Source: Jaapia argillacea MUCL 33604 (taxonomy: Eukaryota; Basidiomycota; Agaricomycetes; Jaapiales; Jaapiaceae). Taken from it: a stretch of DNA of 64,000 nt. Made by a program: the position numbers and the translations under genes. Under the pieces are notes generated by a model. That model saw only the letters and a list, made by a program, of their open reading frames with translations, searched no databases and was not told the DNA's origin. How positions within the stretch are numbered: position 1 is the first letter of the stretch; every line of letters starts with the position of its first letter. Below are positions 37,250 to 59,689 of this stretch, one piece after another. Location of the stretch: the NCBI GenBank assembly GCA_000697665.1, contig KL197723.1, positions 242,448-306,447 on the forward strand. The letters are read 5' to 3'.

Positions 37250-37351
37250 GCCGGCGTGGCCCAATGGTCAAGGCGCACGCTTCCTAAGCTGATGGATTGA
37301 ACCTGTATGCTGAAGAGCGTGAGATTGCGGGTTCGAGTCCCGCCGTTGGTA
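37250..37351 (+). tRNA. tRNA-Arg (anticodon CCT) with 29-nt intron
   Basis: All cloverleaf arms can be drawn. The acceptor stem GCCGGCG pairs with CGTTGGT (with three G-U pairs), the D-arm reads GGCCCAATGGTCAAGGC, the anticodon stem CACGC pairs with GCGTG, and the T-arm is GCGGG-TTCGAGT-CCCGC. The anticodon loop TTCCTAA gives CCT at 37283-37285. The intron (37287-37315) sits one base 3' of the anticodon, the canonical position for nuclear tRNA introns, and removing it leaves 73 nt. A T-run follows at about 37371-37376 as an RNA polymerase III terminator. It decodes AGG. Confidence 0.92.
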
Positions 37352-43791: not shown

Positions 43792-45986
43792 TCAAACACG
43801 GCATCGCAGGGAAACATGAAGGGGTCCGCGGGCAGTTACAAACTGATCGATCAAACGGTCTTCCCAAGTGATGAGATCGTCGTGGTGCCCCGAAGCTCGT
43901 AGGATGTCGAAGGTCTGCATAACGTAGCAGACCACAGCTCGGAGTTCTTGCAGGGCTAAATTCTTACCAACGCAATTGGCAGGTCCGTAAGAGAAGGGTG
44001 TAAATGCCGTATGATCCAGGGCGAAAGCCCCGGGATCATGGGTGGCGTGGGTGGGGTGAGGCAGCCGTTCATGTTCAGGAAGCCAGCGATCGGGCCACCA
44101 GCAATCAGGAAGCGGCGAAAAACATCGGGGATCGCGATGCAGGGAGTACGTGGGGATGATGACTTGAGTTCCGGAAGGAACTAGACTGGAGACAAGTAAG
44201 AAACTATGAACGGAGGGAACCATGTGATCTACTCACAAAGGCCCCACCATCTTCTCCGAGCCAGCGGGCACTGTACGCTGCACTCCACTAAGGATCGGTG
44301 GGAGTAGGCGAAGGGCTTCATTTCTTCAAGTGTATAGCCCCCCTATAAGCGCTTCTTGGACAACAATCGATAAAGATCATCACTCACATACACGCGTTCA
44401 GATACGGCATCGAACTTTGTTTCGTGAAATCCACGGGCTCCTCGCCGTGAGGGAATGTGAAGTCGACTTCTGTCCGAAGGCGTTCGTAAGAGTCTTGATT
44501 TCGCAGTAAGAAGTACCAGAGGTTGCTCAATGCGGTCGCGGTAGTATCGGAACCGGCCACTACGGCCAACACGCCATCTGAGGCAACTTCTGCTGTTGAA
44601 GGTTCGCCACCGTTGTTCCCGTCCTCATCCAGCTACAGGGCGTACTTGTCAACGAAAAAAAGGACATCGAAGACCCATACGCGAAGGGAACCACAAACTA
44701 ACCAGATAGTGAAACAAATCACGCTTGACAGATACAAAGCTCTTCCTCCGGAGGACCATTTCCCTGCCAAATTGTCGCATACGATGAGATGCATTGGCAG
44801 GACCAGGTAACCAGCGAAGGAAGGGTATGGCCCACGGAATGTTGGCGGCCACAGTGCTAAATCTTGAAAAAAAGAGGGGCTAAACGTAAGTCGTGTATGA
44901 GGTTGGTTGAAACTTACTTGACTCCTGTCTCAACCATGCGGCAATAACCATGGACGTCGTGGCCATCCTTGATTATCCCAAAATCGCTCCCAAATCTGTC
45001 ATCCATGAGATCGCGAACGGTGACCAAGGGAAAAACTCACGCCATCTCGCCCATAAAGTTGAACCTAGTGATTGAAGTTATCAGGTCCGTCAGGAAAGGA
45101 AAACAAAGGGAGTTCTCCACCCACGCAAAGTAACTCATCCATTGGGAGATATCCACAACCTCAGACTCTCTTTTTCGGAGTGCTTTAACCAGGTCACGAG
45201 CGTTCTTAATGATGACTTCTTCGTAATCTTTTAGAGCGGCGGTGCTGAATCCATGCATCCAAGCTTTTCGCCGATTCGCGTGCTCCGTGGGATCTCGAAT
45301 AAACACCAGAGGAGATACGCCCCCTTGTTCACGGTGATCGTTGACTTGGGGAAACGGTGAGTGTGTGCAAAATGTGAACAATGGACGGTACTGACATGGA
45401 CCTTTGGGAAGACCATAGGGACCGAGGACGGGCAGTACAGCTTGAGGGTGCCGGATCGACAGTTCATTGGGACCTGAATTGATGTTGAATAACTTGAAGT
45501 TTGGCTCAAGGGAAACCAAATGCCTACCAATGCGGACCACGTCACCATAGGTGTCGTGAAGTGCCTTAATGTAAGCGTGCCGTCTCCCTCCCCAGGTGAT
45601 CCACGCGGTCCACAACTTCGTCAGCTTACAGAGAAGCGGCCCAGGGTATTGTGCGAGCGGATGAAGCGGAGACAAACGATGGACAGTAACCCATACCAGG
45701 AGAAGGGAGGAGTAAGCCAACCAGGACGCTAGCAACAACACATGCGGACCAGCAGATTCAGAGATGGAGGGCCGAAGCGGGATACTAAGGATGGCTGGAA
45801 TGACGCCGAGGAGGAGGACCAAGTTGGTTAAGCCAATTGGCTCATATTGATTGAAGACGGTATAGGAGAGCTGTTGTGTGATTACCCTCCATAACCCAAG
45901 GGAAAGAAATTGAGATCACGCACAAAGCTTGTCGTCAAGAAAGGCAGGGCGGAAGTGGGTACCCCCATAGTAAACCACGTCAGCAT
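43792..45986 (-). CDS. Cytochrome P450 monooxygenase (copy 1, intact)
   Basis: A membrane-anchored haem monooxygenase of about 540 residues with roughly nine exons. The N-terminus (MLTWFTMGVPTSALPFLTTS, then two hydrophobic stretches VLLLGVIPAILSIPL and VLLLASWLAYSSLLLVWV) anchors it in the ER. Landmarks in order: LAQYPGPLLCKLTKLW (proline-rich hinge), HREQGGVSPLVFIRDPTEHA, RRKAWMHGFSTAALKDYEE (C-helix W..R region), the I-helix AVVAGSDTTATAL with the oxygen-activation threonines, the K-helix ExxR in NEALRLLPP, HRDPRCFSPLPDCWWPDRW, and the haem loop FSYGPANCVGKNLA with the cysteine ligand. The usual Arg two residues before that Cys is Ala-Asn, a tolerated variant. Every junction I followed kept the frame. 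It resembles the CYP67-like enzymes common in Agaricomycetes. The substrate is unknown. Confidence 0.92.
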
Positions 45987-49354: not shown

Positions 49355-50754
49355 TCATACGTAGAAACCCTTCCAAGCAGTATCATCAACCACTCCTTTG
49401 TGAAGTGCATCGATGAATGCGAGACAAACGCCCGAAGACACCGTCGACCCTGCATTCTCAAATGCCTGGACATATCTCGTCTTTGCGATGCTCGCACCAC
49501 AATAGATCAGTACCGGTGCGCGATACTGCCGGCCACGTAGATATCTGAGGATATTCTCTCCCGCAGAAAGGTTCATGAAGTCCCTCTCCCTAGATCCCGG
49601 CCCATGTTCGAAACGAGCATTGTCAGAAATGAAACGAAGGCGATTGGCGCGATCGGCATTTCGTAGCAGGCCTTAGAGTAGAACAGGCTAAGTGACCTGG
49701 CAGTGATTGGGGAAGAAGGTCACATACCCTCATTAGCTTCTATCCAAGCTTTGGCGGACGCCGTGGACAGCAGGGTAATGGTAACGATCCCCAATTCCCT
49801 GGCGTACTCGGATTCGTATTGGTTATTAGCGGGTCGGTCGTCAATCCACACGATCATTGGCTTCACTGTCATATCGATATTCTTTTCTTCGAATTTATCT
49901 GTACGGGATCGAATGAGTTGAGCATAATTTAAATGGCAGCTGGCTTCAATCAGAGGCTCACCTGGTTCAGACATTGGATGCAATGCTGCGATGGTGTCTC
50001 GCATCGGCTTACTCCCGACGAACCGGCCGAAGCTCGACGGTGTTACCCCTCCAACAGCATACTCGTCGACGTGGAGAAGCATTGTATCCCGAGTGGTCTG
50101 ATCAAGTTCCACTTTGAGCCACTGGCTGATGGCGACGCAAAATTCCTCCCCAGGCACACAGTGAACCTGCAACGGCCGCACCAGGTGAGTGTCATGACAA
50201 CTTACACAAGGTGACATACACACATCGTCCCCAATCGCTTCTTTCCAGAATCTTTTGGCCTCCGGACTACTGATGCAATCCAAAGGTGACGTCGATTGGG
50301 AGTCCTGGGCGGTATAAGGTGGCGGGGCTGCTTGCAATTCTGGCAGAGTTGCAAGCTGCAGCGAGAAAGATAGTATGGTGAGGCGTTGGAACAAACGGCG
50401 CTCATCCTCGCGCAGCTGATCCGTGATCTGAGAAGGGCTCAAGAAATTGAGCAGGACCGTCTTTGCCTTCCGTTTCTCTTGCCAAATGGCAAGGTGGTCA
50501 CGGGTCAACATGAAGGTTTCGCCCAAATCCTGAAGACACGCCACGACGCTCGGGGTAAGGAGAGATCGCGTGGGAGGTGAGGACTCCTCAGTGCTGGCGA
50601 TTCGATCTTGTAAGGGTACCAAGAGGTCGCAGACACGCGATACGGTCTTCTTCAACTCTCTTAGGGTGACCTCTTTGCATTCCTGTTCGGCCATCCATTG
50701 CTGGACCGCGAGGCAAGCCGAAACGACAGCTGTGAGGACGGTAAGCGCTTCCAT
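49355..50754 (-). CDS. Helical-bundle + receiver/TIR-like protein, candidate fungal immune/cell-death gene
   Basis: Four exons (50754-50224, 50166-49962, 49898-49728, 49671-49355) join in frame to 407 residues. The N-terminal 150 residues are all-helical and resemble the four-helix N-terminal domains of fungal NLR/HeLo and MLKL-type proteins: MEALTVLTAVVSACLAVQQW, ELKKTVSRVCDLLVPLQDRI, FMLTRDHLAIWQEKRKA, RRLFQRLTILSFSLQLATL. A middle block (SSPEAKRFWKEAIGDDVHCV, LLHVDEYAVGGVTPSSFGRF) looks EF-hand-like. The C-terminal 150 residues have receiver-fold order: PMIVWIDDRPANNQYESEYA with paired acids after strand 1, LRFISDNAR with an Asp after strand 3, then NLSAGENILRYLRGRQYRAP and VLIYCGAS after strand 4. 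Two introns are 57 and 63 nt with no stop, so retention would stay in frame. The frame extends upstream to 50850, but a TATA box at 50797-50804 supports the later ATG. The domain reading is inference from pattern. Confidence 0.7.
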
Positions 50755-57016: not shown

Positions 57017-59689
57017 ATGGACGATCCGAGAACCTCAACGCAACTGAAAGGCGATGTGTCTGCATCGTCTGTTACCCCTGCTTCAGCGACCGCGACGAAC
57101 ATGACGTTCCAACAGGCCCTCCAGGCAACGTCGGACGGAAGTGATGTATGTTTTTCCGTATCTCTTAGTCGATTACCCTTGCTAATTCGCCATTCAGATG
57201 TCAATTTTTGTTGCTGCACAGAGAGGCGACGTTGAGATGCTACGACAACTTATCGACTCGGGAAAGGCAAGCGCAGCGGACAGGGACGAACAAAACATCA
57301 CACCACTCCATTGGGCGGCTATCAATGCACAAGTGGCCGCCTGCAGATACCTCTTGGAACAAGGAGCTGAGGTCGACGCTCTCGGCGGTGACCTCGTCGC
57401 CACACCTATGCAATGGGCCGCACGAAATGGTTATCTCTACGTAATTCAACTCCTGATCGCTCATGGTGCAGATCCCAATATTTCGGACTCTCAAGGATAC
57501 AACACGTTACATCTTGTTACCCATTCCTCGTCTATCATGCCTCTACTTTACATCTTGCACCAACCCGTCAACGTTGATGTCCGTGATTCTCAGGGACATA
57601 CGTCACTTATGTGGGCCGCTTACCAAGGAGATGCACTATCTGTCGAACTACTACTCAAGCATGGAGCCAGCCCAAATACCAAGGACGATGCGGGCCTGAG
57701 CCCCCTTCACTGGGCGGTTGTCAGGGGAAACAGAGTTTGTATCAGACGACTGGTTGAGAAAGGTGCAGATCTCAGTGCGAAGGATGGTGAAGGGAGGACG
57801 CCGAGGGATATGGCAGTTGAGCTGAAGAGTTTGGGGGCTTGGAAACGCGCTTTGGAGGAAGGAGGAATGAATGAGGATGGTACGAAGATGAAGAAGGCGT
57901 TGAGTGAGGTACGCCAGGATATACGCCCACCCAATTCAACGCTGACTCTTGTACAGCGGAACTCCAAACTAGCCATCTTCTTCGCTCCCACCATCTTCCT
58001 CTACCTGATGTTTATGACTTTGACGATTTTGCCCTGGTATACCGGTTGTATCCTTGCTATGGCTGTGTTCTTCGCAATGCATCACGTACGTGCAACTGCC
58101 TATCGTTCATTTGTTGTCACCCTGATCTCCCATTCCCAGGTGGTCACTCGAGTACTCCTCAACAATCGCAGTTACACCGACAATGTGACCGGAAGTCCAT
58201 ATTTCGCGGGTATCATATTTGGGTCCATGGTTTGGGTTGCATACTGCTGGATAACACGACTTGTTCAACGTCAGTGTATTAGTCTCGTCTCGTCTCCCAT
58301 TTTTACTGAAATGAGCGTTATAGAAACAACATATCACGCTTTCGCACATCTTTTGTTTGCCTTAATGTTCGGTCTATGCGCCTACAACTTCTTCCGGTCG
58401 GTCACCCTGGACCCTGGAGTATGTCCCAAACCTACCAGCGATGAGGAGTTGAAATCCGTGAGTCATCTTCCATTCATTAATGGAAACCACTGATGATTCT
58501 CTTGTTGCAGATAATCGAGAACTTGGCTTCTGAAGGCCGCCTTAATGGCCAAACATTCTGCATCAACTGCATGGTATGTCGCCAAATCATGACTCTTCTC
58601 GGCGCGGGTTTTCATTTTGCCTTAGGCACGGAGACCCCTCCGTTCAAAGCATTGCCGAATCTGCGATAGTTGCATCGGCCGCCATGATCAGTACGTCGCA
58701 TTCTTTCCATTCCATCGTCACCTACTTACCTTTCCCTGCAGTCACTGTCCTTGGGTATGGAATTGTGGTATGTTCCCAACCTGTAGGACAAAATCTTGAT
58801 ATTGATGTTTGATTTAGTTGGAAGTGGCAATCACAGGCAGTTCGTCCTTTTCGTGACTACGCTATTGGGTGGCATCGCTATATTTGACTACCTTTCTTTC
58901 GCTCGTGAGTTTTTGTACCCACTTCCTCTACGACCGCTCCTGCTCACCGCCCGTGCCCCAGTGTTTGCGTCGGTACCTATCTCAATCGACCCGGCCAATA
59001 TCTCTCCATCTTGCATTTTGCCAGCCGAGCTCTGTGTGCTCACCGCGCACGATACCTTCCTCTTCTCCGTCACCATGTGGGCAACACTCCAACTCACCTG
59101 GACATTTGTCCTGCTCGCTAGCCAATACTGGCAAATCGCTCGCCAAATGACGACTCTCGAAGTTTCCAACCTTGGTCGATACGGATTCATGGGCGGACGT
59201 GGCGGCGCGAGTCTCAGCGGGCAAATGGGACATCGTCATCAACGCGCTGCTGAGGAGGCTGAAGATACGGGTGGCCTAGCTGAAGGCACTGTTCATGCAC
59301 ACCATCGTCATGCATCTGGTATGTGTTCTGGTTGCGGGAGCGGATTCCTCATGAACGTGCTTGGTCTTGACCGATTCACCAAAGGCAAGGCCGTTGACGG
59401 ATTAGCACGTGCTGGGAAGGCAGCAAATCCGTTTGATCTCGGTCTTGTCGGAAACTGCAAGGACTTTTGGACAGGCGGACAAGAGCTCGGCGTTGAGTAC
59501 GAGCGTTTATACGACGTCCCCATTGAAGGATTCCAGGAAGCGAAGAGAAGAAGAGAAATGGAGGATTTGGATGATGGCCGTTCGATCGGTGGCTCCAGAA
59601 AAAGCGTACGAAAAGGCCTTTTGATGGGCCTTGGACTAGGAAGGGGGGGAAGCAGTCGCGCTGGGTACGAACCTGTAAGCCAAGTATGA
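57017..59689 (+). CDS. AKR1: Akr1-type palmitoyltransferase (ankyrin repeats + DHHC)
   Basis: A Golgi/endosomal protein S-acyltransferase; in yeast Akr1 palmitoylates Yck kinases and acts in endocytosis and pheromone signalling. An acidic, Thr/Ser-rich N-terminus joins across an intron at [20 protein letters not shown]. Six ankyrin repeats follow, with typical [60 protein letters not shown] and [20 protein letters not shown] units. Helices surround the catalytic part, which runs [45 protein letters not shown]. Here the DHHC motif is split by an intron after the third base of CA(T). The C-terminal tail has [18 protein letters not shown] (TTxE motif) and the [30 protein letters not shown] and NPFDLG segments typical of fungal Akr1. 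It looks intact. Confidence 0.93.

Follow-up and report, generated by a model that had tools for sequence, protein, structure and literature searches.

The analysed window is a stretch of 64,000 nucleotides from the basidiomycete Jaapia argillacea MUCL 33604 (contig KL197723.1, positions 242,448 to 306,447). A gene of this window, here named P1, encodes a protein that ends in a pseudo-receiver, i.e., a domain whose homology to the CheY-like receiver superfamily is well supported by comparison with bacterial relatives. P1 is one of three copies in the genome (P1, P2, and P3). A role as a cell-death switch is proposed tentatively.

C-terminal pseudo-receiver and its bacterial relatives

The pseudo-receiver covers approximately residues 258-392 (49403..49863, minus strand, including intron 3) and was delimited by profile links to bacterial relatives. 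Searches of the P1 domain against Pfam, NCBIfam, and PADLOC gave no family match at E up to 10. In the genome search with the Pfam model Response_reg, the loci of P1, P2, and P3 were not listed at E up to 10, and the 24 exon-level matches obtained were ordinary receivers. By tblastn against plasmids, three weak matches were found. The best (E 0.09) was a 256-residue Escherichia coli protein annotated as 'response regulator', which has two hydrophobic segments, recognized by eye, and a receiver matching Response_reg at 1.8e-8, above the curated cut-off. The fungal profile recovers this relative at E 9.9e-6 within its record. The tblastn search against phages, the search of viral contigs with A2 and A3, and the PDB sequence search with the whole fungal protein led nowhere.

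The set of relatives was obtained by a contig scan with a mixed alignment, which gave 105 candidate stretches; 65 were confirmed by the E. coli sequence, and all 65 were used. Response_reg matches every one of them at E up to 0.01. A profile of the 65 relatives finds P1, P3, and P2 at E 4.7e-10, 5.1e-10, and 2.7e-8 among 10,402 sequences, and the best of 9,000 shuffled sequences reached E 1.5. The only other rows that beat the shuffles were exons of the same gene. In a tree, the three fungal domains formed one long-branched clade (100/100), the placement of which among bacteria is not settled by the tree.

The reverse search, with the fungal profile, matched nine of ten genomes holding a relative, at one place each (E 8.7e-6 to 0.0073). 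All nine places were the relative, and the tenth genome, with the divergent relative L086, gave no match. This search is independent of the motif patterns used to choose the relatives. Ordinary receivers are abundant in Pseudomonadota genomes. Among 398 of these genomes, the fungal profile matched two at E 1e-4, i.e., the seed genome and one with a gene outside the 65, which by eye has TIR and receiver domains. Because only three of the ten relatives in the reverse search reach E 1e-4, this count underestimates the spread. From the reverse searches, the fungal-bacterial relation looks specific and not a generic receiver likeness.

Some results weigh against the receiver assignment. The 65 relatives were chosen by two motif patterns, and the alignment behind these patterns contained the fungal domains. 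With the two motifs masked, the fungal proteins ranked 1-3 of 9,003 at E 0.041, 0.35, and 0.5, and the best shuffle was at 1.1. Most of the measurable receiver signal therefore sits in two motifs, and this control weakens the sequence case for a receiver. The reverse-search matches align only approximately positions 3-49 of the 139-position profile.

By motif and alignment, the acidic pair D265-D266 (49837..49842, minus strand) corresponds to CheY D12 and D13, and D319 (49622..49624, minus strand) to D57, the phospho-acceptor position. These three residues are invariant across the three copies. The CheY positions T87 (switch Thr/Ser) and K109 (Lys) are C and S in all three, the K109 column being in a less certain region of the alignment. 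The phosphotransfer Lys and Thr/Ser are mostly lost in the 65 bacterial relatives, too. An ordinary response regulator was rejected as first choice because of these two positions.

In the first-pass annotation, the C-terminus was described as receiver-like or TIR-like from the motifs VWIDDRP (262-268), FISDNAR (316-322), and YCGAS (359-363), all of which are present. The receiver reading is well supported via the bacterial relatives, with a sequence link that is largely the two motifs. The TIR-like reading was rejected, i.e., the Pfam TIR model, like every other family at E up to 10, has no match to the fungal domain, and TIR is one partner domain of the bacterial relatives. Sub-threshold Pfam matches of P3 to DUF2859 (C-terminus, E 0.026) and EAD10 (E 0.52) were not used.

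Partner domains of the relatives

The receiver is placed near the C-terminal end of the relatives: in 61 of 65, it is followed by no more than 25 residues. A strongly hydrophobic stretch is found ahead of it in 39 of 65, of which at least one is doubtful: in L060, the stretch is at the start of an over-long open reading frame (ORF), and the receiver groups with the DUF4062 type. Partner matches at E up to 0.01 were DUF4062 (nine), TIR_2 (eight), KAP NTPase (two), SIR2 (one), and Mrr nuclease (one), in a tally where classes can overlap and where some N-termini are over-long because ORFs start at the first possible start codon. Of six relatives viewed singly with PADLOC, two had no match, and in the other four the match was confined to the partner half. 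DUF4062 was described as a TIR-like NADase (NAD, nicotinamide adenine dinucleotide) family in antiphage defence (PMC13174449). By analogy with these partner domains, an immune or cell-death role of P1 is plausible.

The E. coli gene, encoding a two-transmembrane (2TM) pseudo-receiver protein, occurs in 26 of 5,426 genomes of this species. In one genome it lies between yfgI and guaA (L019:6027-8771) with an AAA ATPase gene and an integrase fragment, and the locus looks like a small insertion. A Rhizobium phaseoli plasmid protein of 1,509 residues (L020:4276-8805), annotated as SAV_2336-related, carries the same pseudo-receiver and a SLOG cluster-4 domain. Its C-terminus is caspase-like by eye, and it adjoins MoxR ATPase and trypsin-like genes, a setting that resembles the conflict systems described in PMC7159879 and PMC8195603. 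Receivers were reported there as sporadic among effectors, with vWA-associated ones occurring without histidine kinases (PMC7159879), and histidine-kinase-independent receivers were predicted to be nucleotide-responsive switches (PMC8195603). A Clostridia protein (L062:2234-4246) combines a SIR2 domain of the Thoeris ThsA/DSR2-like type with the same C-terminal pseudo-receiver.

Gene structure and three-copy family

The coding region of P1 is on the minus strand (50754..49355) and has four exons. The spliced translation gives 407 residues, as first annotated, and a stop codon ending exactly at 49355. Exon 1 (50224..50754) encodes residues 1-177, i.e., the N-terminal helical domain and the start of the middle domain. 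It is followed by exon 2 (49962..50166), exon 3 (49728..49898), and exon 4 (49355..49671), which includes the stop codon. The introns, 50223-50167 (57 bp), 49961-49899 (63 bp), and 49727-49672 (56 bp), are all of the GT..AG type. The protein had been annotated as lacking NTPase domains and repeats, and nothing of either kind matched in Pfam.

The genome (43.7 Mb, 95 contigs) was searched for copies, and the C-terminal exon was found at three places. P2 (404 residues, 84% identical to P1) is 74 kb off on the same contig, beginning at C15:367220 on the minus strand and extending to at least 365881. P3 (404 residues, 41% identical to P1) is on a different contig, beginning at C53:133699 on the plus strand and extending to at least 135036. 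The three proteins have an identical domain order, and the intron positions match in the gene models made here; the architecture of P1 is therefore beyond chance. P1 and P2 have flanking DNA in common, i.e., a main block of approximately 88 bp upstream and 79 bp downstream and two more upstream blocks, and thus look like a segmental duplication. Between them, the ratio of nonsynonymous to synonymous substitution rates (dN/dS) is lowest in the C-terminal domain (0.24), followed by the middle (0.31) and the N-domain (0.70), with an overall value of 0.44. These values argue for working genes with a strongly constrained C-terminus, and the receiver is under purifying selection.

N-terminal and middle domains

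Residues 1-140 (50335..50754, minus strand) were assigned to a putative four-helix region with a hydrophobic helix 1 (2-23), from a low-confidence model, hydropathy, and a weak MLKL resemblance. A single-sequence AlphaFold2 model of exon 1 predicted helices at 2-23, 29-55, 68-103, and 110-134, with low confidence (predicted local distance difference test 53), and agrees at that level with the all-helical N-terminus seen in the first annotation. Helix 1 is hydrophobic in P1, P2, and P3, with Kyte-Doolittle 19-mer maxima of 1.56, 1.64, and 1.59 starting at residues 3-4. The three-sequence profile of the N-domain scored 20.5 against human and mouse MLKL, higher than all 300 shuffles (maximum 16.9), with fungal residues 34-109 aligned to MLKL 28-93. 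No Pfam HeLo, SesA, or MLKL_N match was found in the three N-domains at E up to 10. The earlier suggestion of a HeLo- or MLKL-type bundle thus keeps a suggestive profile score and helix order and has no family match; the MLKL likeness is a lead, not a demonstration. The N-domain profile gave six rows against PDB sequences (best E 0.89). In P1 and P2, the region of the first helix had a sub-threshold PH_FT_C match, which was not used, and two sub-threshold SesA matches in the genome were read by eye as an unrelated protein.

The middle region, approximately residues 161-245 (49962..50274, minus strand, including intron 1), shows weak Pfam similarity to the EF-hand-like Cbl_N2 (E 0.015, below its cut-off). 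In an EF-hand loop, the ligand rule concerns positions 1, 3, 5, and 12. The loop DEYAVGGVTPSS and its counterparts in the two other copies have D, Y, V or I, and S there. Only position 1 keeps its ligand, so calcium binding is unlikely from the sequence, and a calcium-binding EF-hand was rejected. The EF-hand-like description of this region therefore holds for the weak similarity, and the loop retains only the first acidic ligand.

Genomic surroundings

In the window (57186-59686, plus strand), an ORF with ankyrin repeats precedes one whose DHHC match is sub-threshold, and together they resemble an ankyrin-type palmitoyltransferase. A cytochrome P450-like exon (45040-45915, minus strand) was barely over the Pfam cut-off. 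At gathering thresholds, Rfam matched the window only at a tRNA gene (37250-37351, plus strand). At E up to 0.001, the genome has at least 50 NACHT matches, among those listed five on C7 and six each on C20 and C22, indicating that an NLR-type repertoire exists beside the P1 family. Fusion of the C-terminal domain to NACHT had been raised as a question; none of the 50 NACHT matches listed was on C15 or C53.

Proposed function and alternatives

P1 is possibly, at a little under an even chance, a small self-contained conflict or cell-death protein. A helical head is joined to a receiver tail whose bacterial relatives are often linked to defence or cell suicide, and the protein may therefore be a self-contained cell-death switch. 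The pseudo-receiver would be the sensor. Since the acidic, metal-binding pocket is kept and the switch Thr/Ser and Lys are lost, the input is probably a bound ligand or partner protein and not a histidine-kinase relay. A nucleotide or NAD-derived compound is a candidate ligand and would fit the bacterial partner domains. The degenerate EF-hand region would be a structural linker. Sensor engagement, as the putative trigger, would lead to oligomerisation and free the MLKL/HeLo-like bundle, and the hydrophobic helix 1 would disturb the plasma membrane and cause cell death. The membrane-attacking bundle as effector is the least supported step. The effector or membrane part comes first and the pseudo-receiver last, as in most prokaryotic relatives, which makes a cis-regulated effector the most economical account. 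The more specific reading, i.e., a fungal necroptosis-like executioner switched in cis by a pseudo-receiver of prokaryotic-defence type, with an MLKL-like membrane bundle as suicide effector, is tentative and rather doubtful.

Several observations count against a membrane-attacking cell-death protein. The hhalign probability of the MLKL match is only 4% and not significant alone. Foldseek put MLKL at rank 6 (E 0.3) behind designed bundles at ranks 1-5, and nothing reached E 0.001. VIA-align returned assorted helical bundles, with MLKL absent among the 50 rows listed, and the genome search with Pfam MLKL_N gave nothing at E up to 1. A simple dimerisation domain would have a similar appearance. 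The partner tallies are non-exhaustive, and the relatives behind them were confirmed with a single bacterial query. Nine ORFs of the window were scanned, and none matched a defence family.

The main alternative, tentative and well short of an even chance, is a non-lytic signalling adaptor, in which the helices serve only for dimerisation or partner binding, and the pseudo-receiver is a docking site for proteins or ligands during stress or developmental signalling. It would fit an N-domain with no HeLo, SesA, or MLKL_N match and a low-confidence model resembling assorted helical bundles. With a dN/dS of 0.70, the N-domain changes more rapidly than the other regions, as would be expected of a bundle under loose constraint and equally of a fast-evolving effector. 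However, the N-terminal place in the bacterial relatives is taken by effector-type domains (TIR, SIR2, DUF4062, and Mrr) or hydrophobic segments, helix 1 is hydrophobic in all three copies, and both the order of the helices and the profile score point towards MLKL.

Domestication of a bacterial-type domain for metabolic or housekeeping regulation, with a helical part unrelated to cell death, is unlikely. The receiver is under purifying selection and the matches among the nine neighbouring ORFs are P450-, ankyrin-, and DHHC-like, but housekeeping genes do not typically form a small family with one duplicate at a distance of 74 kb and a fast-evolving N-domain. Very improbable is the output protein of an ordinary fungal phosphorelay (histidine kinase, Ypd1-type carrier, and receiver) with D319 phosphorylated. 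The acidic pair and D319 are kept and the genome has ordinary receivers, whereas C and S occupy the positions of the switch Thr/Ser and Lys, most relatives likewise lack these residues, and Response_reg does not match the fungal domain even at E 10.

Comparison with known systems and significance

The prokaryotic proteins that join an effector to a pseudo-receiver (2TM-, TIR-, DUF4062-, SIR2-, and KAP-REC) have the receiver family with WxDDxPxNN, LSTxxA, ISDxxR, and P in common with the fungal copies. In contrast to them, the fungal copies have a helical bundle and a degenerate EF-hand region instead of TIR, SIR2, or membrane segments, and their receivers carry two insertions around strand 3. 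An executioner of this kind would be a eukaryotic counterpart of TIR-REC, SIR2-REC, and TM-REC proteins that kept the bacterial-type sensor.

Animal MLKL is the necroptosis executioner, and its control domain is a pseudokinase. The likeness to P1 is in the proposed layout, i.e., an N-terminal killer bundle under a C-terminal domain that lost catalysis. The control domain here is a pseudo-receiver, not a pseudokinase, and the sequence link is only suggestive. Basidiomycete MLKL-like (BaMLKL)/HeLo proteins likewise have N-terminal helices with a hydrophobic helix first and stand alone without NTPase (PMC9815663); for P1 this is a candidate likeness only. The cREC domain (PF20274) is also a receiver outside histidine-kinase systems and is tied to NAD and cyclic-nucleotide processing (PMC7824862). 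The E. coli relative fits Response_reg better than cREC (1.8e-8 versus 6.5e-4, below the cREC cut-off), whereas the fungal domain matches neither.

In the main text of PMC9815663, the word 'receiver' does not occur, and no fungal receiver fused to an MLKL-like bundle was named among the matches listed from the open-licence literature. According to PMC9815663, Basidiomycota have hundreds of solitary MLKL-like domains, which other proteins are expected to control; amyloid-type motifs were seen in just a few of 500. If the executioner reading is true, P1 would offer one answer as to how solitary basidiomycete MLKL-like proteins are controlled without an NLR. Control by a built-in pseudo-receiver would be of a new kind and would connect prokaryotic defence proteins with fungal cell death. 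The prediction of nucleotide-responsive switches (PMC8195603) could then be tested in a eukaryote on a single small protein.
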